The notes under the pieces are model-generated. The model made no database searches. It had not been told where the DNA came from and worked only from the letters and a program-made list of their open reading frames with translations. A stretch of DNA of 64,000 bases from NCBI GenBank assembly GCA_030841085.1, contig JAVEDP010000017.1, forward strand, positions 1 to 64,000, in the 5' to 3' direction. Source of the DNA: Pyrinomonadaceae bacterium (GTDB taxonomy: Bacteria > Acidobacteriota > Blastocatellia > Pyrinomonadales > Pyrinomonadaceae). The position numbers and the translations under genes are program-made. Shown in pieces: positions 13,728-55,700 of the stretch (the stretch's first letter is position 1; each line of letters starts with the position of its first letter).

Positions 13728-13736
13728 TACTAGTTA

Positions 13737-13936
13737 GTCCAAAGTCCAATGTCCAAAGTCCAATGTCGATTGATTCAAATAGTTCTGAGTCCCAACCTTT
13801 AGGTTGTTGCTTTGCAGCGAAAAGCAAGCTGAAGCTTGTACTCTGAACTACTTGAGCTTGACTCTGAACTGCTTGAATATCCCGTCACAGCTTCGTTCCC
13901 TGACTTTGGACATTGGACATTGGACTTTGGACACGT
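13737..13936. repeat. Facing heptamer arrays around a family-G hairpin element
   Basis: The left array (13737-13767) has units GTCCAAA/GTCCAAT. The right array (13902-13936) has the reverse-complement units GACTTTG/GACATTG. Between them, at 13781-13850, is a palindrome-like element (CCCAACCTTTAGGTTG and CAAGCTGAAGCTTG) that recurs at 43469-43552. The right array lies inside the 3' end of the cNMP-binding gene and codes for its last residues. Confidence 0.8.
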
Positions 13937-14848: not shown

Positions 14849-14934
14849 GAGACGCGGCGACAGGGCGACAGGGAGATCCCTTCCCATAGATCGCCGTATC
14901 GCCGTGTCTCCCCGTCACCCCGTCTCCGCGTCTG
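14849..14934. repeat. Facing octamer arrays (GCGACAGG / GTCTCCCC type)
   Basis: The left side (14849-14880) has eight-base units such as GCGACAGG repeated. The right side (14890-14934) has ATCGCCGT twice followed by GTCTCCCC, GTCACCCC, GTCTCCGC. The two are roughly reverse complements with a nine-base gap. The same unit family brackets the four-helix-bundle gene at 47517-47933, so this looks like a gene-less relative. Confidence 0.75.
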
Positions 14935-17615: not shown

Positions 17616-17816
<201 letters not shown>

Positions 17817-18338
17817 CTAGATTTCTTTGTACTCCGAATCGACATCTTCATCTGAAAAAGCGACGCGGTAGTTTTTCGACTGCACCTGGGTCGTGATTAG
17901 CAGATCAGTTTTAGTCTTAAGCAGGTCGGCGCGGTTGTAAACCGAAAGTTCAAAGTTGTAGCCGTGGGTAATTGCATCCTTTGGACACGCCTCAACGCAG
18001 TAACCGCAAAAGATGCACCGCCCATAGTCGATGTTGTAGACCTCGGCGTAACGCTCATCGACGCCGATGCGATCGGCGGGCAGGCGCGGGTCATCTTTCG
18101 CGATGATGTATATGCATTCGGAAGGGCAGGCAGCGGCACAGAGAAAACAAGCGACGCACTTTTCCTTGCCGAGTTCGTCAACATGAAGCAGGTGCTGACC
18201 ACGGTAACGGGGCTGCATCGTCACCGGCTCTTCGGGATATTGGACGGTCCATTTTCGTTTTGGAATGTAGGAAAGCGTCACGCCCATCCCCTGGATGATG
18301 GCTTTCGTCGATTGAATTACGTCGGTAATAATAGACAT
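17817..18338 (-). CDS. nuoI: NADH-quinone oxidoreductase subunit I (8-Fe ferredoxin)
   Basis: 173 residues. Carries the two [4Fe-4S] clusters N6a/N6b of complex I, passing electrons through the peripheral arm. Two complete cluster motifs: C61, C64, C67, C71 and C108, C111, C114, C118, each ending in CP. The family segment YPEEPVTMQPRYRGQHLL is present. No other nuo gene is adjacent, so this is either a split complex I set or an extra copy. No ribosome site: heptamer-like sequence (18347-18384) lies directly upstream of the ATG, and another array abuts the TAG stop. Confidence 0.93.
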   Translation of the reverse strand: MSIITDVIQSTKAIIQGMGVTLSYIPKRKWTVQYPEEPVTMQPRYRGQHLLHVDELGKEKCVACFLCAAACPSECIYIIAKDDPRLPADRIGVDERYAEVYNIDYGRCIFCGYCVEACPKDAITHGYNFELSVYNRADLLKTKTDLLITTQVQSKNYRVAFSDEDVDSEYKEI

Positions 18339-18346
18339 TGCGTTTT

Positions 18347-18674
18347 GGCAGTTGTTAGTTGTTTGTGGCCAGTGGTCAGTTGTCGTCTTTGGTCTTCGGT
18401 CTTCGGTCTTCGGTCTTTGGTCTTTGGTCCTTGGTCCTTGGTCCTTGGTCTTTGGTCTTTGGTCTTTGGTCTTTGGTCTTTGGTCTTGGGTCTTGGGTCT
18501 TGGGTCTTTGGTCTTCGGTCTTTGGTCTTCGGTCTTCGGTCTTCGGTCTTTAAAATTTGGAATCTGGAATTTGAAATCTGAAATTTGTTTTTGCTTTCCG
18601 CCTACCGCCTACCGCCTACTGCCGTCTGCTCCTGCCGTCTGCCGTCTGCCGTCTGCTCCTGCCGTCTGCCTACT
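18347..18674. repeat. Three heptamer tracts in a 330-base gene-less gap
   Basis: 18347-18384: GTTAGTT/GTCAGTT-type units next to the nuoI start. 18385-18551: about 24 units of GGTCTTY (variants GGTCCTT, GGTCTTG), the longest array here. 18598-18674: CCGCCTA units, then TGCCGTC units, overlapping the TAG stop of the next gene. Between 18552 and 18597 is AATCTGGAATTTG-like repetition. Long frames across this stretch (repeating VFGL-WSL) result from period seven being out of step with codons. I see no gene. Confidence 0.9.
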
Positions 18675-33559: not shown

Positions 33560-34933
33560 TTGGGACGAAGTCTTTTCCTTAAAATCTTTCTTTGGTTTGG
33601 TGCGGCGCTGCTGACGGTCGTGGTAGGCACCTTTCTGGTTGGCGAACTGTTGCGGCCGGAACCGTTTCATCCTCCAATGCGACGGCCCCTGGATGCGGCG
33701 GTGAAGGGTTATGCACAAGTGGCGACCGAGATCTATGAACGCGACGGCCAAACGGCGCTGGCCGAATATTTTGATCGAGTCGAGCGCGAGGGCCACGTTC
33801 GCATTTTTCTTTTTGATAGCAAACTTCGCGAATTAGCGGGACGCAAAGTGCCGGACGCGGCGCCCGAACTCGCCCACCAGGTTCTGCAGAGTCATGCACC
33901 CGAGTTTGGCGCGCACGGCCCACCCGGACTAATGGCCCAGCCGGTGACTTCCCCGAGTGGCGCACAATATGTGCTGGTTGCCGAGTTGCCGATGCAGATG
34001 CGCTCGGCGCCGTTGTGGGACCACCTGCTGCATTTGCTGGCCATCATCGCGGTCGCCGGATTGTTCTGTTATTGGCTGGCAAGGTATCTGACGGCGCCGG
34101 TGACTAAATTGCGCGCGGCCACTCAGGAATTAGCGCGCGGCAACCTGAGCGCGCGCGTCGCGCCGGCATTCGGAAACCGTCGTGACGAGTTGGCAGCGCT
34201 GGCAACGGACTTTGATCAAATGGCCGAACAGATTGAAACGTTAGTTAATGGGCAGCGGCGGTTGTTGGGTGACATCTCGCATGAATTGCGTTCGCCACTG
34301 GCGCGCCTGAATGTCGCCTTGGAATTGGCGAGGCAGCGGGCCGGCGCTGACGCTGCCACTGCACTGCAACGGATTGAGCGCGAAGCCGAAACACTCAACG
34401 AAATGATTGGACAACTGCTGGCGCTTACGCGGCTCGAGAGTCATACCGTAGCAGTCGAGAAGACTCAGTTTGATCTGGTCCAGTTAATGCGGGAAATTGC
34501 TGACGACGCAGACTATGAAGCCAGCAATCGCAACCGCTCGGTGCGGCTTGAGGCTCCTGCCGCCTGCAACATTTTCGGGAACGAGCAACTGTTGCGACGA
34601 GCAATAGAAAATGTGGTTCGCAATGCAGTGCAGTACACGGCCCAGGAGACTGCGGTCGAGGTGAAGTTGGACTGCGGCGATCACGCGGTCATAACCGTTC
34701 GCGACCATGGACCAGGAGTTCCGGCCGAGACGCTCGATAAACTCTTTCGTCCTTTTTATCGTGTTGACGAAGCCCGCGATAGAGATAGCGGCGGCACCGG
34801 ACTGGGCCTGGCGATTGCCGAACGCGCAGTTCGCCTGCATGGCGGCACAGTTGAAGCCGCCAATGTTTCCACTGGCGGCCTCGTAGTTACCATTACCTTG
34901 CCTGTCGAGCACACAGCAGACAGCAAACAGTAG
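33560..34933 (+). CDS. cpxA: CpxA-like sensor histidine kinase
   Basis: About 457 residues if started at TTG 33560 (GGAG eight bases upstream); a GTG at 33512 lacks a ribosome site. Membrane helix 1 (FLKIFLWFGAALLTVVVGTF), a periplasmic loop of about 120 residues, helix 2 (LLHLLAIIAVAGLFCYWLAR), HAMP (YLTAPVTKLRAATQELARGN), HisKA with the phosphorylated His in GDISHELRSPLARLN, and HATPase with NVVRNAVQYT, DHGPGVP and GGTGLGLAIA. It senses the envelope and phosphorylates the adjacent regulator. The stop TAG and last residues TADSKQ lie in an ACAGCAA-type heptamer array. Confidence 0.92.
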   Translation: MGRSLFLKIFLWFGAALLTVVVGTFLVGELLRPEPFHPPMRRPLDAAVKGYAQVATEIYERDGQTALAEYFDRVEREGHVRIFLFDSKLRELAGRKVPDAAPELAHQVLQSHAPEFGAHGPPGLMAQPVTSPSGAQYVLVAELPMQMRSAPLWDHLLHLLAIIAVAGLFCYWLARYLTAPVTKLRAATQELARGNLSARVAPAFGNRRDELAALATDFDQMAEQIETLVNGQRRLLGDISHELRSPLARLNVALELARQRAGADAATALQRIEREAETLNEMIGQLLALTRLESHTVAVEKTQFDLVQLMREIADDADYEASNRNRSVRLEAPAACNIFGNEQLLRRAIENVVRNAVQYTAQETAVEVKLDCGDHAVITVRDHGPGVPAETLDKLFRPFYRVDEARDRDSGGTGLGLAIAERAVRLHGGTVEAANVSTGGLVVTITLPVEHTADSKQ

Positions 34934-34941
34934 ACAGCCAG
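34914..34941. repeat. Heptamer array at kinase stop codon (left arm)
   Basis: Units ACAGCAG, ACAGCAA, ACAGTAG, ACAGCCA across the TAG stop of the kinase gene. Faces the array at 35407-35494. Confidence 0.75.
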
Positions 34942-34958
34942 CGGAAGAAAACCGGCTA

Positions 34959-35318
34959 CTAACGATCGGCTCTAACCTTTAGGAGAAGCGCTGCCAGCAT
35001 GCGTTTCACTTCGATTATCTGGGATTCAAGACCTTCATATGACTCAGCGCTGATAAACCCTAAATCCTTTGCTAGCAGGACGTGATACTCGACTTCGTAC
35101 GCTGACCCCATTCCAATCTGCAAGAATCTTGCAAGTTCAACATTTCCTCCGCGCCCAAAACCCTCTGCGATATTTGCCGGTATAGAAGCTGACGCACGTC
35201 TTAGCTGACTTGTAATACCGTAAAGTTCTTCTTTGGGAAACCCGGCAGTAGCTTTGTAAATTTCGAGTACAAGCTTATGAGCCTTTTCCCAGACTTTGAT
35301 CTGCCGAAAGTCGCGCAT
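34959..35318 (-). CDS. Four-helix-bundle protein (S23/IVP-like family)
   Basis: 119 residues, complete. The family signature is clear: DFRQIKVWEKAHKLVLEIY, FPKEELYGITSQLRRASASI, PANIAEGFGR, ELARFLQIGMGSAYEVEYHV. Such proteins form helical bundles; the family was first met as the protein encoded in 23S rRNA intervening sequences, and relatives include accessory proteins of diversity-generating retroelements. The function of stand-alone copies is unknown. It stands opposite to the kinase gene and is bracketed by facing heptamer arrays (34914-34941, 35407-35494), which suggests it arrived as a cassette. A second, divergent member is at 47517. Confidence 0.9.
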   Translation of the reverse strand: MRDFRQIKVWEKAHKLVLEIYKATAGFPKEELYGITSQLRRASASIPANIAEGFGRGGNVELARFLQIGMGSAYEVEYHVLLAKDLGFISAESYEGLESQIIEVKRMLAALLLKVRADR

Positions 35319-35406
35319 GACACGTCCTTAGCATGCGCCAAAAGAAACAGCAAGCAACTCCAAAAATTCGGGCATTTGATCTAATGCCAGGATTCTTGTA
35401 AAAGCC

Positions 35407-35494
35407 GCTTGCTGTTTGCTGTTTGCTGTTTGCTGTTTGCGTTTGCCGTTCGCTGTTTGCTGTCTGCTGTTTGCTGTTTGCTATTCGCTGTCTA
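35407..35494. repeat. Heptamer array at prolyl oligopeptidase stop codon (right arm)
   Basis: About 13 units of GTTTGCT (variants GTCTGCT, GTTCGCT), the reverse complement of the array at the kinase stop, ending inside the TAG stop (35492-35494) of the peptidase gene. Between it and the four-helix gene (35319-35406) is a non-coding stretch with GAAACAGCAAGCAA. Confidence 0.88.
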
Positions 35495-46688: not shown

Positions 46689-47459
46689 ATGGGTTCGGAC
46701 AAAGATCAAGGTAGCGCGACCAGAGGCTCTTTGCGCCTCGCCCCCAATTGCGTCGAGTTGGAGGAACAGAAAGCCAAGCTGCCGCGGCAATTTGTTAACT
46801 TCACGTTCTATAGCGCCCGGCCTGAGTGGCGCATGTTGGCCGCTGACGAGAAGCAACGATGCAAAGATGAATTCGTCGGCACCGTACAAAAATTTCATCC
46901 GCCTTTGCTGCTTCATAGTTACTCGACCATCGGCCTGCGCACGAATGTTGATTTCATGATCTGGCGTATTGGCTATGAGTTGGACCCGATCCAGGAGATG
47001 ACCTCGGAACTGAACCACACCGAGATGGCGAAATACATCGAGCCCACGCAATCGTTTCTCTCAATGACTAAACGATCGATGTATATCGATAAAGACAATC
47101 CTGAGCACGCAGAAGATCGCCTGCACATTGTTCCGGGCAAATCGGACTATCTTTTCGTCTATCCCTTTGTGAAGACTCGCGAGTGGTATTCGCGCACCGC
47201 GGACCAGCGCCAGGAAATGATGGATGAACACATTCGCATTGGCTCCAAATATCGTTCGGTCAAACTTCACACGACTTATTCTTTTGGTTTAGATGATCAG
47301 GAATTCGTCGTCGCCTTTGAGACTGACAACCCGGCGGATTTTCTTGACCTGGTCCAGGAACTGCGGGAAACAAAAGCAAGCTCCTACACTCTGCGCGATA
47401 CCCCGATGTTTACCTGCCGCCAACGAACGCTGGCCGAGTGTCTCAATGCGCTTGGCTGA
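46689..47459 (+). CDS. hemQ: Chlorite dismutase-family protein, HemQ-like coproheme decarboxylase
   Basis: 256 residues. The fold of chlorite dismutase/HemQ is visible: QFVNFTFYSARPEWRML, FLSMTKRSMYIDKD, DYLFVYPFVKTREWYS and the heme-ligand segment VKLHTTYSFGLDDQEFVVAF, where the histidine of KLHT is the proximal ligand. The Tyr of VYPF is placed like the catalytic tyrosine of HemQ. The Arg that chlorite dismutases need cannot be confirmed, so HemQ (last step of coproporphyrin-dependent heme synthesis) is favoured. No clear ribosome site. Confidence 0.85.
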   Translation: MGSDKDQGSATRGSLRLAPNCVELEEQKAKLPRQFVNFTFYSARPEWRMLAADEKQRCKDEFVGTVQKFHPPLLLHSYSTIGLRTNVDFMIWRIGYELDPIQEMTSELNHTEMAKYIEPTQSFLSMTKRSMYIDKDNPEHAEDRLHIVPGKSDYLFVYPFVKTREWYSRTADQRQEMMDEHIRIGSKYRSVKLHTTYSFGLDDQEFVVAFETDNPADFLDLVQELRETKASSYTLRDTPMFTCRQRTLAECLNALG

Positions 47460-47460
47460 C

Positions 47461-47505
47461 GCCGCGACAGGGAGATGGGGAGAAGGGGCGACAGGGAGAT
47501 CGCCT
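47461..47505. repeat. Octamer array, left arm of a bracketed four-helix-bundle cassette
   Basis: Units GACAGGGA, GATGGGGA, GAAGGGGC, GACAGGGA, starting three bases after the HemQ stop and ending 12 bases before the ATG of the four-helix gene. Faces the array at 48017-48067. Confidence 0.78.
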
Positions 47506-47516
47506 CTCGCAAGCCA

Positions 47517-47933
47517 ATGGCCCACATTTCGACTTACAAGGAACTCCGCGTTTATCAGGCAGCCATGACCGCCGCAATGCGGATCTTTGAACTCACCAAA
47601 AAATTTCCTATTGAAGAACGGCATTCGTTAACCGATCAGATTCGCCGCTGTTCACGATCGGTATGTTCAAATATCGGCGAGGCTTGGCGGAAGCGTCGAT
47701 ACCCTGCCCACTTCGTCAGCAAACTAAGCGATTCAGAGGGAGAGGCTGAGGAGACTCGTGTCTGGTTAGAGTTCTCCTGGCGATGTGGCTCCATGTCACA
47801 AAGCGAAGCAGCTTCGCTCGATAAGGAGTACGACCAAATCATTGGCCAATTGGTACGAATGATTGATCGTCCGGATCAATGGCTAGTTTCGACTCACGCG
47901 GCCAATGCGGGAACCGGCAAATTAACAAAGTGA
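47517..47933 (+). CDS. Four-helix-bundle protein (S23/IVP-like family), second copy
   Basis: 138 residues from ATG 47517; an open frame upstream reads through the octamer array. Weaker but clear family pattern: YKELRVYQAAMTAAMRIFEL, FPIEERHSLTDQIRRCSRSV, CSNIGEAWRKRRYPAHFVSK, SDSEGEAEETRVWLEFSWR, ending with a charged helix and the tail GTGKLTK. It differs from the copy at 34959 in half or more of its residues, so the two are not recent duplicates. Octamer arrays lie on both sides. The last four bases overlap the GTG start of the next gene. Function unknown. Confidence 0.88.
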   Translation: MAHISTYKELRVYQAAMTAAMRIFELTKKFPIEERHSLTDQIRRCSRSVCSNIGEAWRKRRYPAHFVSKLSDSEGEAEETRVWLEFSWRCGSMSQSEAASLDKEYDQIIGQLVRMIDRPDQWLVSTHAANAGTGKLTK

Positions 47934-50900
47934 AATCGCGCGCGTTTGGCAAGAGTGCTTTGATTCTGCTTGCCACCTTCACAACTTTTTTTTGGTCTCT
48001 CTCTTCGTCGGGTTCCAGCCTTCGCGTCTCCCCGTCCCCCCGTCTCTCCGTCTCCCCGTCTCCCGGTCTGGAGTACCTCTGGCTTGAGACCGAAGAGATG
48101 CGCGGGTTTGCCACGCAGCCAAATGGCGAGCCGGTACTGAATCCCTCCTGGCGTGACTTGCCCAGCGCCCAGGCGCGCGGTTGGGGCATGAACGGCACCG
48201 GCACCTCGGCCGAGTGGACACAGGGCGGAGAAAGCGGCTGGAATTCCGCGGCGGCCAGCGCGGATGAAACCCAGGCGACCATCTATCAGAACATTGAGAT
48301 TCCCCGCGCCGGTCAATACCGCGTCTGGGCCCGTTATGCGGACTGGGCCAACAAGACTGAAAACTTTGTTATCACTGTCAGTCAGCGAGAGCACGAAGTA
48401 TTCCGGCATGAGTTTGGTACGAAAGATTTGATCGATGTCCATGATGAAGTCAGCATGTACTGGCGCTGGGCATTTACCTGGGACAGCGCAACTGCGCAAT
48501 TGGAAAAAGGCCCGGCGCGCATTTCGATCGCGATTGAGAAAGCTGCTCAGGCGCGCCGTCACGTCGATGTCACGCTTGTAACAAACGATCTTGCTTATAC
48601 GCCCCAGGCGCGTGCTAAGCCGGACTTCGCAGCGATGCGTTACCTGCGTGACTGGTCCAACAACCGCGTGCCGCTCGCTTCTCTAATCAGCCAAAATATT
48701 TCCAGCGAAACTCCGGCGGTGTGGCAACGGCCAAGTATTGCGGGCCGCGACTTTCTTCTGCCCTGGAACATAGCGCCGGATTTTTGGAAGCTATACGACC
48801 TGTCGCCCGGAGAGCGTCCTCTCTATCCGTTCAATGCCGAGCCGATCGATCAGTTTGTGCAGAAATATAAAGGCGCTCGAGATGTCCCAATTTTTAGTTC
48901 CAAACTCGTTGCGCCGGTGATCTATATCAACAACCTTCCCGAGTATCTAAAGGAAGGAAGTCCATTTCTACGTTTCCTGCGGGAAACGAAAAGCCCGTTC
49001 GCCGTGCTTATCAACTACGGTTCAGCAGACATGTCGGACGCAGATGGCCAGGCGGCCTGGAATCTTTTGAATGGAGAACTCAAGGATCAATTTCTTGGCT
49101 GGATTTCCGGCGAAAGTGTGGGCCACGTATTCGACTCAGCCGCGAAGGAATTGAAAGTTTCCGATGCTATGTCACGGCGCGAGTTGCTCGAGGCGTATCG
49201 CAACTTTTACAACAATGCTATTGCGCGCAAGTGGGCCGGTACATTCCACGTCGAAACCGGTGCGATGTGGGACAAATTGATTCCCGCGCAATCAACTTCA
49301 AGCACATCATTTGCTCACGCGCTAACTAATTGGGGAGTGCGGCTGTTAGGCATTGAGACGGCGGCGGTGCAACCGATGTTCGCAATGCGCACCGCATTCA
49401 CGCGCGGCGCCGCGCGGCAATACGGCGCCAATTTTCTTTACTACCACGCGCCGAACTTTGGGGATACGGCTACTACATTTACGAAAGCGCAAAACTTTGC
49501 CGGGCCGGATAATTTTTTCCATTCGCGCTATGGCGTGACGATGGGCCCATCGCTCTCGTGGTATCGCAAGAGCTATTACTTCTATTACATGTCCGGCGCC
49601 GCGGCGATCTATCTCGAGCAAGGTGGCGATCAGTTCTTCAAGCCTGGCCCGGGCGAACATGAATTCCAGTTAAACCCGTTAGGTCGCATTACTGACGAGT
49701 TCGTGCGCTTTGCAGAAAAGCATCCGGATCGCGGCAGCCCTTACACGCCCGTCGCTTTTTTGCTTGATCCGGCCCACGGCTGGGAGATGACTGACTATCC
49801 GCAATGGTCCTTTGGAGTTTCCCAAACCAATCGGAGCGACCGTGCGCTGCGCGAATTGTTTAGTGTTGCGTACTTTCCTGGGACTGTAGTTGAGGGTGAA
49901 CCCGCCACCGGCGATCGTCAGGCCTTCGTCAACGGCGCCTTTGGCGATATTTTTGATGTGCTGGTCGCCTCGAACAACCCGGACAGTAAGTCCATCGTTC
50001 AAAGTCCAACTGCTCGCGCCGCCGTCGTAGTGAAAGCCACACAAACGATCGCAGACGAAAAAGCGCGGCAGACTAAGACCACCACGAGCGACCCATGGAT
50101 GTACGAAGGCGGGAATCCGAGCGTCGGCGCGTCGCCGACACCAACCCGCTTACCAATTGTGACGCGTGGCACGCTCGCGCCTGCTTCGCCGATCAACTAC
50201 GCAGCGCTGTTGGGTTCGTATCGCGCGGTGGTCGTCGGCGGTCGACTAGAGTGGACAACGTCTTGGATCCAACGACTAACTGCGTATGTCAAATCCGGCG
50301 GTACCGTCGTTCTTAACGCCGCTCAAGTCAAAGACATTCCCACCGAACTGCTCGGCTTACGACTCACCGGTGTGACTGCCGAAGCCGACAACGCGCGTTG
50401 CCTGTCGAGCGGCGAAGCATCTCAAAATCTAAGCGGCCAAATGTTTCGTTATGAAAAGTTAGAATTGAAAGGCGCGACCCCGCTGATTATTTCGGACAAC
50501 GGCGATCCGCTCGTAACAGTCAACAAAGTCGGCAGCGGCACCGTCGTCTTTGCGGCTTTGCCAGATCTGCTTGGCGAAGACGAACGGGTCACGCCTTTTG
50601 CGGCACACATGCTCGCGCACGTCTTCGCAGATGCTGCGCCCATCAAAATAAACGGCGACGTTGAATATCTGATCAATCGCAACGCGGAAGGTTGGCTGGT
50701 CACGCTGATTAACAACAACGGCGTCTACAAACCACAACAAGGCATGGCCCAGGTGGATCGCAGTGCCGTGGTCACAGCGACAATCACCTTGCCATCACAA
50801 ATCAGAACTGCGACTGATTGGATTAGTGAAAAGAGTATTGAGGTGAAGAGCCAACCGGGCGGAAGCGCGGTCCGCATTAGCATTCCGCCCGGCGGCATTT

Positions 50901-50956
50901 CCATCGTGCAACTGAAAACCGAGTCTACCCAAACAGGTAGCGCCGGGAACGATTAA
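47930..50956 (+). CDS. Large secreted protein, probable glycoside-hydrolase-like, unrecognised
   Basis: 1008 residues from GTG 47930, which overlaps the previous stop (GTGA) and yields a signal peptide (KSRAFGKSALILLATFTTFF); an ATG 17 codons earlier gives none. Residues about 23-37 (LRVSPSPRLSVSPSP) are coded by an octamer array. N-terminal domain of carbohydrate-binding type: EYLWLETEEMRGF, IEIPRAGQYRVWARYADW. A long middle domain (about 190-690) has helical and beta stretches with GWISGESVGHV and HVETGAMWDK, like a TIM-barrel hydrolase. A C-terminal domain has VLNAAQVKDIP (class I amidotransferase-like) and an Ig-like end. No catalytic pair identified. Confidence 0.75.
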   Translation: MKSRAFGKSALILLATFTTFFWSLSSSGSSLRVSPSPRLSVSPSPGLEYLWLETEEMRGFATQPNGEPVLNPSWRDLPSAQARGWGMNGTGTSAEWTQGGESGWNSAAASADETQATIYQNIEIPRAGQYRVWARYADWANKTENFVITVSQREHEVFRHEFGTKDLIDVHDEVSMYWRWAFTWDSATAQLEKGPARISIAIEKAAQARRHVDVTLVTNDLAYTPQARAKPDFAAMRYLRDWSNNRVPLASLISQNISSETPAVWQRPSIAGRDFLLPWNIAPDFWKLYDLSPGERPLYPFNAEPIDQFVQKYKGARDVPIFSSKLVAPVIYINNLPEYLKEGSPFLRFLRETKSPFAVLINYGSADMSDADGQAAWNLLNGELKDQFLGWISGESVGHVFDSAAKELKVSDAMSRRELLEAYRNFYNNAIARKWAGTFHVETGAMWDKLIPAQSTSSTSFAHALTNWGVRLLGIETAAVQPMFAMRTAFTRGAARQYGANFLYYHAPNFGDTATTFTKAQNFAGPDNFFHSRYGVTMGPSLSWYRKSYYFYYMSGAAAIYLEQGGDQFFKPGPGEHEFQLNPLGRITDEFVRFAEKHPDRGSPYTPVAFLLDPAHGWEMTDYPQWSFGVSQTNRSDRALRELFSVAYFPGTVVEGEPATGDRQAFVNGAFGDIFDVLVASNNPDSKSIVQSPTARAAVVVKATQTIADEKARQTKTTTSDPWMYEGGNPSVGASPTPTRLPIVTRGTLAPASPINYAALLGSYRAVVVGGRLEWTTSWIQRLTAYVKSGGTVVLNAAQVKDIPTELLGLRLTGVTAEADNARCLSSGEASQNLSGQMFRYEKLELKGATPLIISDNGDPLVTVNKVGSGTVVFAALPDLLGEDERVTPFAAHMLAHVFADAAPIKINGDVEYLINRNAEGWLVTLINNNGVYKPQQGMAQVDRSAVVTATITLPSQIRTATDWISEKSIEVKSQPGGSAVRISIPPGGISIVQLKTESTQTGSAGND
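48017..48067. repeat. Octamer array, right arm of the four-helix-bundle cassette
   Basis: About six units of the CGTCTCCC type with variants CGTCCCCC and CGTCTCTC, inside the 5' coding part of the large secreted protein gene. Reverse complement of the left array at 47461-47505. Confidence 0.8.
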
Positions 50957-54852: not shown

Positions 54853-55009
54853 ACGGTTAGTAGTCAGTGGTTAGTGGTCAGTTGTCCGTTGTTAGTTGCT
54901 AAGAACGTCGCCATCACTGCTGACATTCAAAGGTAACCACTGATAACTAACAACCGACAACTGACAACTGACGACGGACAACCGAACCGACAACTGACAA
55001 CTGACGAAC
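54853..55009. repeat. Facing heptamer arrays between acylphosphatase and apt
   Basis: Left (54853-54899): GTTAGTA, GTCAGTG, GTTAGTG, GTCAGTT and similar. Right (54932-55009): ACAACTG, ACAACCG, ACGACGG and similar, reverse complements. The spacer is about 30 bases. The right array ends five bases before the apt start. Confidence 0.82.
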
Positions 55010-55013
55010 CAAT

Positions 55014-55535
55014 ATGGATGACCTTAAAAAACTAATTCGCGAAGTACCGGATTTCCCAAAACCCGGCATTAATTTTTATGACATCACCACGCTGCTAAAA
55101 CATCCCGACGGCTTGCGCAAGACTGTCGATGCGCTGGCTGCGGAGTATGACGGCGAAAAGGTCGACACCGTGATTGGCGTCGAAGCGCGCGGCTTCATTT
55201 TTGCCCCGGCGCTGGCTTATCACCTGGGCGCCGGGTTTGTGCCGGTGCGCAAGCCAAAAAAATTGCCGGCTGAATGCGCGTCGATTTCTTATGATTTGGA
55301 ATACGGACAGGACACGCTCGAGATTCATCGCGACGCGGTTGGCAATGGTCACCGAGTCATCATTGCAGATGATCTCCTGGCCACTGGCGGCACGGCAAAA
55401 GCGGTTTGTAATCTAGTGGAACAGCTGGGCGGCATTGTGGTCGGCTTAGTGTTTGTGGTCGAGCTGGAGTTTCTGCCCGGCCGCGCAAAGCTTGATGGGT
55501 ACGATGTGAGATCGCTGATCAAATATCAAAGCTAG
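55014..55535 (+). CDS. apt: Adenine phosphoribosyltransferase
   Basis: 173 residues, full length. It makes AMP from adenine and PRPP. PRPP-binding motif [14 protein letters not shown] at 115-128, base-recognition segment [20 protein letters not shown], flexible loop [13 protein letters not shown], and [14 protein letters not shown]. The ATG is preceded by a heptamer array, with no Shine-Dalgarno sequence. The stop TAG is the first base group of another array. Confidence 0.96.
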
Positions 55536-55700
55536 AAGTCAGAGGTCAGAAGTCAGAGGTCAGAAGTCAGAGGTCAGAGGTCAGAGGTCAGAGGTCAGAC
55601 ATCGAGGTGACAGACCTGGTTCACTAACTTTCTGATCTCTGACTTCTGATCTCCGACTTCTGATCTCTGACTTCTGATCTCTGACTTCTGACCTCTGCTC
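55533..55700. repeat. Facing heptamer arrays after apt, ten units each
   Basis: Left 55534-55603: ten units of AGAAGTC/AGAGGTC, overlapping the TAG stop of apt. Right 55631-55700: ten units of TCTGACT/TCTGATC, the reverse complement. Spacer 27 bases. It can fold into a hairpin of about 70 bases per arm. Confidence 0.9.

Follow-up and report, generated by a model that had tools for sequence, protein, structure and literature searches.

The window (the whole stretch of DNA that was analysed, 64,000 nucleotides) contains, between the gene for HemQ and the gene for a large secreted protein, a short gene for a four-helix bundle protein that is bracketed by inverted octamer arrays, and the right array lies inside the coding region of the neighbouring gene. 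What kind of element is this, and how did one of its ends become part of a secreted protein? A preliminary description had taken the locus for an inserted unit fused to the 5′ end of its neighbour. The locus is real as described there, but it is no one-off and belongs to a large class. We consider it probable that 47464–48069 represents a class of small mobile units in which a PF05635 gene is flanked by two arms, each a tandem array of 7- or 8-bp repeats and the two inverted relative to each other. The locus comprises the following features.

46689–47459, + strand: HemQ gene (chlorite dismutase family; Pfam PF06778, 2e-58), the left neighbour
47464–47500, + strand: left arm, octamer array of GACAGGGA/GATGGGGA
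47517–47933, + strand: four-helix bundle (23S_rRNA_IVP) gene, 138 aa (PF05635, TIGR02436)
47930–47933, + strand: GTGA, shared by the four-helix stop and a possible GTG start of the secreted-protein gene
47930–50956, + strand: secreted-protein gene, 1008 aa from the GTG, with homologues in 25 of 78 relatives
47930–48024, + strand: signal-peptide region, inside the unit, downstream of the four-helix stop and upstream of the right arm
48025–48069, + strand: right arm, octamer array of CGTCTCCC, inverted relative to the left arm and read in frame as a Ser-Pro-Arg linker

The anatomy given in the preliminary description was recovered. Octamers of the left array start 4–6 bases beyond the HemQ stop codon (TGA, 47457–47459), and the coordinates given earlier were right to within a few bases. 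The right array, with 5.6 copies of CGTCTCCC, lies in frame within the secreted-protein reading frame after the signal peptide, and the GTGA overlap with a 1008-residue protein was found as reported for a GTG start; an in-frame ATG is also present at 47879. Comparable overlaps occur in relatives (TTGA in genome G010 and GTGA in genome G013). The four-helix gene matches PF05635 (6.7e-29, 100.7 bits) and TIGR02436 (97.1 bits) well above the curated cut-offs of 33.8 and 24, respectively, and it probably starts at ATG 47517, in agreement with its homologues, rather than at ATG 47475 inside the left arm. With one mismatch allowed, the window has 14 occurrences of the motif GACRGGGAGA where 5.6 are expected; 0 of 100 shuffles reached 14, and 13 of the 14 fall in two places, namely, the hemQ locus and a gene-less hairpin at 14856–14933. 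The arms of the hemQ locus have a period of 8 and form an inverted-repeat stem with the S23/IVP reading frame in its loop. At this site, the left and right arms match their own partners no better than arms from other genomes.

The flanks of PF05635 genes were compared on a wider scale by aligning 300 nt on either side as inverted sequences, with a fixed cut-off score of at least 15; the hemQ locus scores 19. In the source genome (G000, 4.69 Mb), 15 of 17 PF05635 genes have inverted arms, versus 2 of 517 control ORFs of 100–230 aa from 400 kb of the same genome (Fisher 4e-25). Both of these control ORFs are Y1 (IS200/RAYT-type) transposases with REP-like palindromes, and Y1 genes flanked by such palindromes lie at L057:8376–8976 and L043:4487–5072. 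The repeat units in the source genome vary by locus (CAGTGGG, CAAGTTC, GAGTGCT, CAGCAAA, CAGAGGT, GACAGGGA and others), and the two arms of one locus match. Two PF05635 genes of this genome, L013 and L014, are armless and have a longer C-terminus (REREEFLKEL), and are possibly a domesticated subfamily. Among 78 relatives of the same class, arms were found in 49 of 57 PF05635 rows, in which a few loci are listed twice. A wide sample across many phyla, drawn with one protein subfamily as the best 80 of 535 candidates, gave arms in 61 of 79 PF05635 loci versus 1 of 181 neighbouring ORFs on the same contigs (Fisher 8e-42), and it includes Nitrospira, Bacteroidetes, Planctomycetes, Verrucomicrobia, Armatimonadetes, Proteobacteria and a candidate-phyla bacterium. 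The mismatched-flank control in this sample was 4.5%, because the units share a consensus (AGTTTCA, AGTTCAA, AGTCCAA). Arms were also present at all five plasmid-borne PF05635 genes examined (Nostoc, Calothrix, Pseudanabaena, Trichormus and Riemerella). The genomes compared are mostly metagenome assemblies, and a PF05635 search of 14 well-known control genomes gave no match, which may explain why the class has been overlooked. The 5′ motif ATCACCCT was considered as a further class feature and left out of the class definition, being found in 16 of 143 loci overall and mostly in the source genome.

Judged from where the alignments of duplicated copies stop, the arms are the ends of a duplicated and transferred unit, and terminal inverted repeats delimit this unit as in DNA transposons and MITEs. 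Loci L006 and L010 of the source genome, which lie between efflux genes and beside a gene read as glyceraldehyde-3-phosphate dehydrogenase, respectively, are two copies of one unit at unrelated loci, 83.5% identical over 534 bp, with the likeness bounded by the arms on both sides. Genome G009 carries two inverted copies about 2 kb apart with 85.3% identity over 605 bp, again ending at the arms, and genomes G008 and G002 share a unit core that is 92% identical between unrelated flanks. In a tree of the L012-like subfamily, the genus of the source genome is intermixed with other families.

Sites are polymorphic between sister genomes. Neither G011 nor G005 has the second unit of the window (34910–35490), and the junction there holds a short hairpin of another kind. 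At the site of L006, the four-helix gene is absent in G002, G003, G004, G010 and G014, of which G002 and G010 have a 7-mer hairpin without a gene there, G014 has a REP-like palindrome, and G003 and G004 have no more than a short palindrome. A GAGTGAT-armed unit of G011 occupies, at a third place, the exact position of a gene-less CAGCAAA hairpin in the source genome, and the adjacent spot shows the reverse. Such differences at matched sites indicate that intergenic hairpin positions are reoccupied repeatedly by different elements. The sites compared for target-site duplication likewise carry other hairpins at the same position, with no clean empty junction.

Arrays are also found apart from PF05635 genes, and the window itself contains several gene-less hairpins in addition to the second gene-bearing unit:

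34910–35490, − strand: second unit, heptamer arms CAGCAAA / TTTGCTG, PF05635 gene at about 34962–35318 (−); absent at the same site in G011
14853–14934, no strand assigned: gene-less hairpin with octamer arms as at the hemQ locus, loop of about 35 bp
55533–55697, no strand assigned: gene-less heptamer hairpin AGAGGTC / TCTGACC
13735–13932, no strand assigned: gene-less heptamer hairpin AGTCCAA / TTGGACT
54855–55005, no strand assigned: gene-less heptamer hairpin GGTTAGTAGTCAGT / ACTGACA

In 464 kb of the source genome, period 7 alone is in excess among tandem arrays (41 versus about 1 for shuffles and for other periods). With periods 7 and 8 taken together, 34 of 54 arrays lie within 1.2 kb of an inverted partner. 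Several gene-less array units are identical to units flanking four-helix genes. Gene-less hairpins with short loops rise in number with PF05635: heptamer arrays numbered 0 in 520 kb of four PF05635-free genomes and 49 in 1,400 kb of seven genomes with PF05635. Across 11 genomes, sampled over 74–400 kb each in stretches that exclude the listed PF05635 places, the density of 7-mer arrays correlated with PF05635 genes per Mb at a Spearman coefficient of 0.88 and with Y1 transposases at 0.64; the latter also track the arrays and therefore remain a confounder. Several different families of 7-mer arrays are clustered at 17618–18670 of the window, surrounding a gene whose product resembles a ferredoxin-type (NuoI-like) protein.

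The repeat unit follows the PF05635 protein subfamily. Protein identity and arm composition were correlated (Mantel r = 0.42 overall, 0.33 under 60% identity and 0.15 under 50% identity), and 0 of 1000 permutations reached values as high; the L012-like subfamily has mostly GACRGGGW octamers and occurs in several families of the host's class. The four-helix genes are under strong purifying selection, with dN/dS of 0.025 at the hemQ site (against G011), 0.03–0.09 at other sites and 0.02–0.09 over all five measurable pairs, four further pairs being saturated at synonymous sites; the value for the secreted neighbour is 0.135. Searches with Pfam, NCBIfam and PADLOC revealed no transposase in the unit, Y1 transposases included, and PF05635 is its sole gene. 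The units are most likely mobile MITE-like elements akin to rRNA intervening sequences, located outside rRNA and having no known transposase, with their mobility inferred from copies and empty sites.

The relation between the unit and the secreted protein was analysed in homologues found with the mature part as query in the 78 relatives (25 positive). Their N-termini form two groups, with and without an octamer-coded linker rich in Ser, Pro and Arg. The linker lies between the signal peptide and EYLW in G000, G011, G006, G013, G010, G017 and G012. A four-helix gene or its remnant is located upstream in the first six of these, being frameshifted in G013 and 5′-truncated in G017, and G012 has a RAYT-like transposase in its place. 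The 19 remaining homologues have neither linker nor four-helix gene. The association is significant under both a strict and a loose criterion for the linker (Fisher 3e-5 and 4e-4). In homologues that lack the four-helix gene, a plain signal peptide leads into a short linker and ...EYLWYEAENMRG, and the Ser-Pro stretch is missing, as the preliminary description had anticipated, and the insertion-free loci that it proposed to search for exist among the relatives. The linker in distant lineages with no four-helix gene beside it, which would have spoken against that description, was looked for in the homologues and was not seen. Within one genus, G017 and G044 have a similar upstream gene, and the unit is present in one and absent in the other (read by eye). 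The frame from signal peptide to linker is open in all seven linker genomes. As octamers shift the frame unless gained in threes, this is expected of a translated, constrained linker.

The earlier reading is partly supported: the linker tracks the four-helix gene (6 of 7 genomes versus 0 of 19), but simple insertion is inadequate. The distance from the four-helix stop to the right arm is 5–35 nt in related units elsewhere (L123, L127, L128, L129, L132, L134), versus about 90–150 nt at the hemQ site, where it corresponds to the signal peptide. Because the signal peptide lies inside the unit, one-step insertion of a ready-made unit fails to explain the anatomy. Either the gene would have entered the loop of a pre-existing hairpin that spanned the start of the secreted-protein gene, or the arm would have re-formed downstream. 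Insertion-free hemQ sites often have other hairpins between hemQ and the secreted-protein gene (G043, G004, G007), and in G004 the first residues of this secreted protein are already encoded by the right arm of a hairpin of the CAGATTACGC type, which makes entry of the gene into an existing hairpin a plausible order of events. Hairpins with units like CAGATTACGC occur in the same intergenic slots at L085 and L086 (the hemQ sites of G004 and G007) and at L249 and L250. A situation like that at the hemQ site recurs at L246 of G009 (1158–1619), where the open frame of a neighbouring gene extends upstream across the right arm of a unit with octamers (VLVSASLRLPPPCLPISPSPRLSVSPRP...). A single origin at the hemQ site was set aside, given that a weakly supported tree mixes the hemQ-site copies with copies of other families elsewhere and fits one or several insertions.

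Other explanations of the arrays were weighed against these results. An element acting at the RNA level like the 23S rRNA intervening sequence, in which the transcribed arms form a stem that RNase III cleaves, with RNA-borne mobility through an Avd-like four-helix protein and a reverse transcriptase, is a genuine although unlikely alternative. It draws on the Coxiella 23S intervening sequence, which has tandem heptamers (GACAGAT) upstream of the S23p ORF and is cut by RNase III at the first repeat (PMC4990558), on the weak but real similarity of L001 to Avd (NF033474, 7.7e-10), and on strong predicted RNA folds with paired arms (z −5.4 for L006 and −2.15 for the hemQ locus). However, mismatches in the coding-strand arms showed no excess of G.U (137) over A.C (129; p = 0.67), and selection on an RNA stem is unsupported since A.C is about as frequent as G.U. 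In a check by motif only, none of the loci examined carried any of four conserved 23S rRNA motifs, and no RVT_1 match was found in G017, G027 and G037, which have 9–13 PF05635 genes each. A reverse-transcriptase partner as a general rule was rejected, several PF05635-rich genomes being without any RVT_1. The sole RVT_1 match of the source genome (L245, G000:C24, 1006–2640) is a 544-aa frame on another contig with no PF05635 gene adjacent, and it looks like a lone defence-type reverse transcriptase.

It is unlikely that the hairpin arms are moved in trans by IS200/RAYT-type Y1 transposases with the four-helix gene as a passenger. Y1 genes are common in the same genomes (15 in the source genome), REP-like palindromes use the same intergenic slots, and both control ORFs with inverted flanks are Y1 genes; against this, array density tracks PF05635 better than Y1, the arm unit tracks the four-helix subfamily, G044 has 14 Y1 genes and 0 arrays in 100 kb, and G015 has no Y1 match, yet carries 1–3 arrays in 160 kb depending on the threshold. 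Host regulatory hairpins at fixed slots, serving in mRNA end protection or attenuation, with PF05635 proteins as adjacent RNA-binding regulators and without mobility, would agree with the strong purifying selection that the four-helix gene shows and with the occurrence of different hairpins in one slot across species. This account is improbable, as units complete with their arms have been copied to unrelated loci and passed between genomes, and a given slot has the gene in some genomes and lacks it in others. Tandem arrays can arise through slippage, but an origin of the arrays by chance or polymerase slippage, with coincidental bracketing, has a negligible probability: period 7 alone is in excess, and the control counts (15 of 17 versus 2 of 517) refute it.

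For the preferred reading, a mobile unit with array ends, a mechanism may be outlined. The four-helix protein, a homopentamer in a solved relative, would recognise the array hairpin that belongs to its subfamily and, together with host enzymes, would allow the unit, or a derivative without the gene, to be copied into intergenic hairpin positions. To our knowledge, no catalytic domain is known for PF05635, so the model needs a host enzyme. The rRNA intervening sequences occupy hairpins of 23S rRNA in a comparable way. At the hemQ copy, the right arm would have come to separate the signal peptide from the mature part of the secreted protein without breaking the frame, and would since have been kept as the Ser-Pro-Arg linker in seven related genomes. 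The locus would also illustrate how a mobile end can turn into a translated linker of a secreted protein.

The 23S rRNA intervening sequences of Leptospira and Coxiella are similar in having a protein of the same family, whose reading frame occupies the loop of a long stem formed by inverted repeats, and a patchy distribution with horizontal transfer. The present units differ in that they lie outside rRNA in intergenic positions (that at 47464–48069 sits between hemQ and the secreted-protein gene, not within a 23S rRNA gene), with 17 PF05635 genes in one genome, and in that they have gene-less derivatives and a repeat unit that differs per locus; the present four-helix gene is under strong purifying selection, whereas the Coxiella ORF is decaying. 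The REP/REPIN elements with RAYT (Y1) and MITEs resemble them as short multicopy intergenic hairpins in gene-bearing and gene-less forms with turnover between species, but the present unit is without a transposase and its arms are tandem arrays rather than single palindromes. The Avd protein of diversity-generating retroelements belongs to a four-helix fold family with weak sequence similarity, but the present units and the sequence next to them showed neither a reverse transcriptase nor a template/variable repeat pair.

Intergenic 7-mer arrays are known from Xanthomonas, Nostoc and Beggiatoaceae (GGGAATC, GGGGAYT, TAACTGA), and the Xanthomonas arrays (GGGAATC) are often convergent pairs (PMC4692102). 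The arrays of the source genome likewise are intergenic, of period 7 and in convergent pairs, as described for STRR-type repeats, with the hemQ locus itself having period 8. No associated gene family is mentioned in the accessible parts of these reports, nor, for Xanthomonas and Nostoc, a general connection with mobile elements; for the TAACTGA repeats, a mobile protein that binds the repeat has been put forward as a speculation (PMC4679880). In contrast to the arrays as they appear in those parts, the present arrays bracket PF05635 genes and are statistically dependent on them. In the literature searched, with most subscription papers outside it, no link of PF05635 with arrays outside rRNA was found, and papers on intervening sequences and on heptamer arrays exist there with none joining both. 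The unit type is apparently widespread but undescribed, and there is a fair chance that this selfish element of the intervening-sequence type is a separate kind of its own. A broader reading, which we hold tentatively at slightly below an even balance, is that of a phylum-spanning mobile family whose sole protein is a four-helix bundle without a known catalytic domain and whose array ends are protein-specific; it would be the source of the unexplained bacterial heptamer arrays, with the rRNA intervening sequences as an offshoot. If true, the job of the S23/IVP proteins, annotated only as 'four helix bundle protein', would meet the origin of intergenic heptamer arrays, each protein subfamily would be expected to bind its own repeat, and arrays would be expected to be absent where the gene is absent.

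Two minor observations concern the surroundings of individual units. An armed four-helix unit lies between cas6 and cas4 in a CRISPR operon of a Pseudanabaena plasmid (L232, 1501–1860). At seven loci (L001, L005, L006, L007, L009, L010 and L011), the motif ATCACCC(T/C), which is like the 16S rRNA 3′ end, occurs 20–40 nt upstream of the four-helix start, with an AGGAGG-like site after it; this motif, which is rare in other genomes, could pair with the ribosome-binding site of the gene itself.
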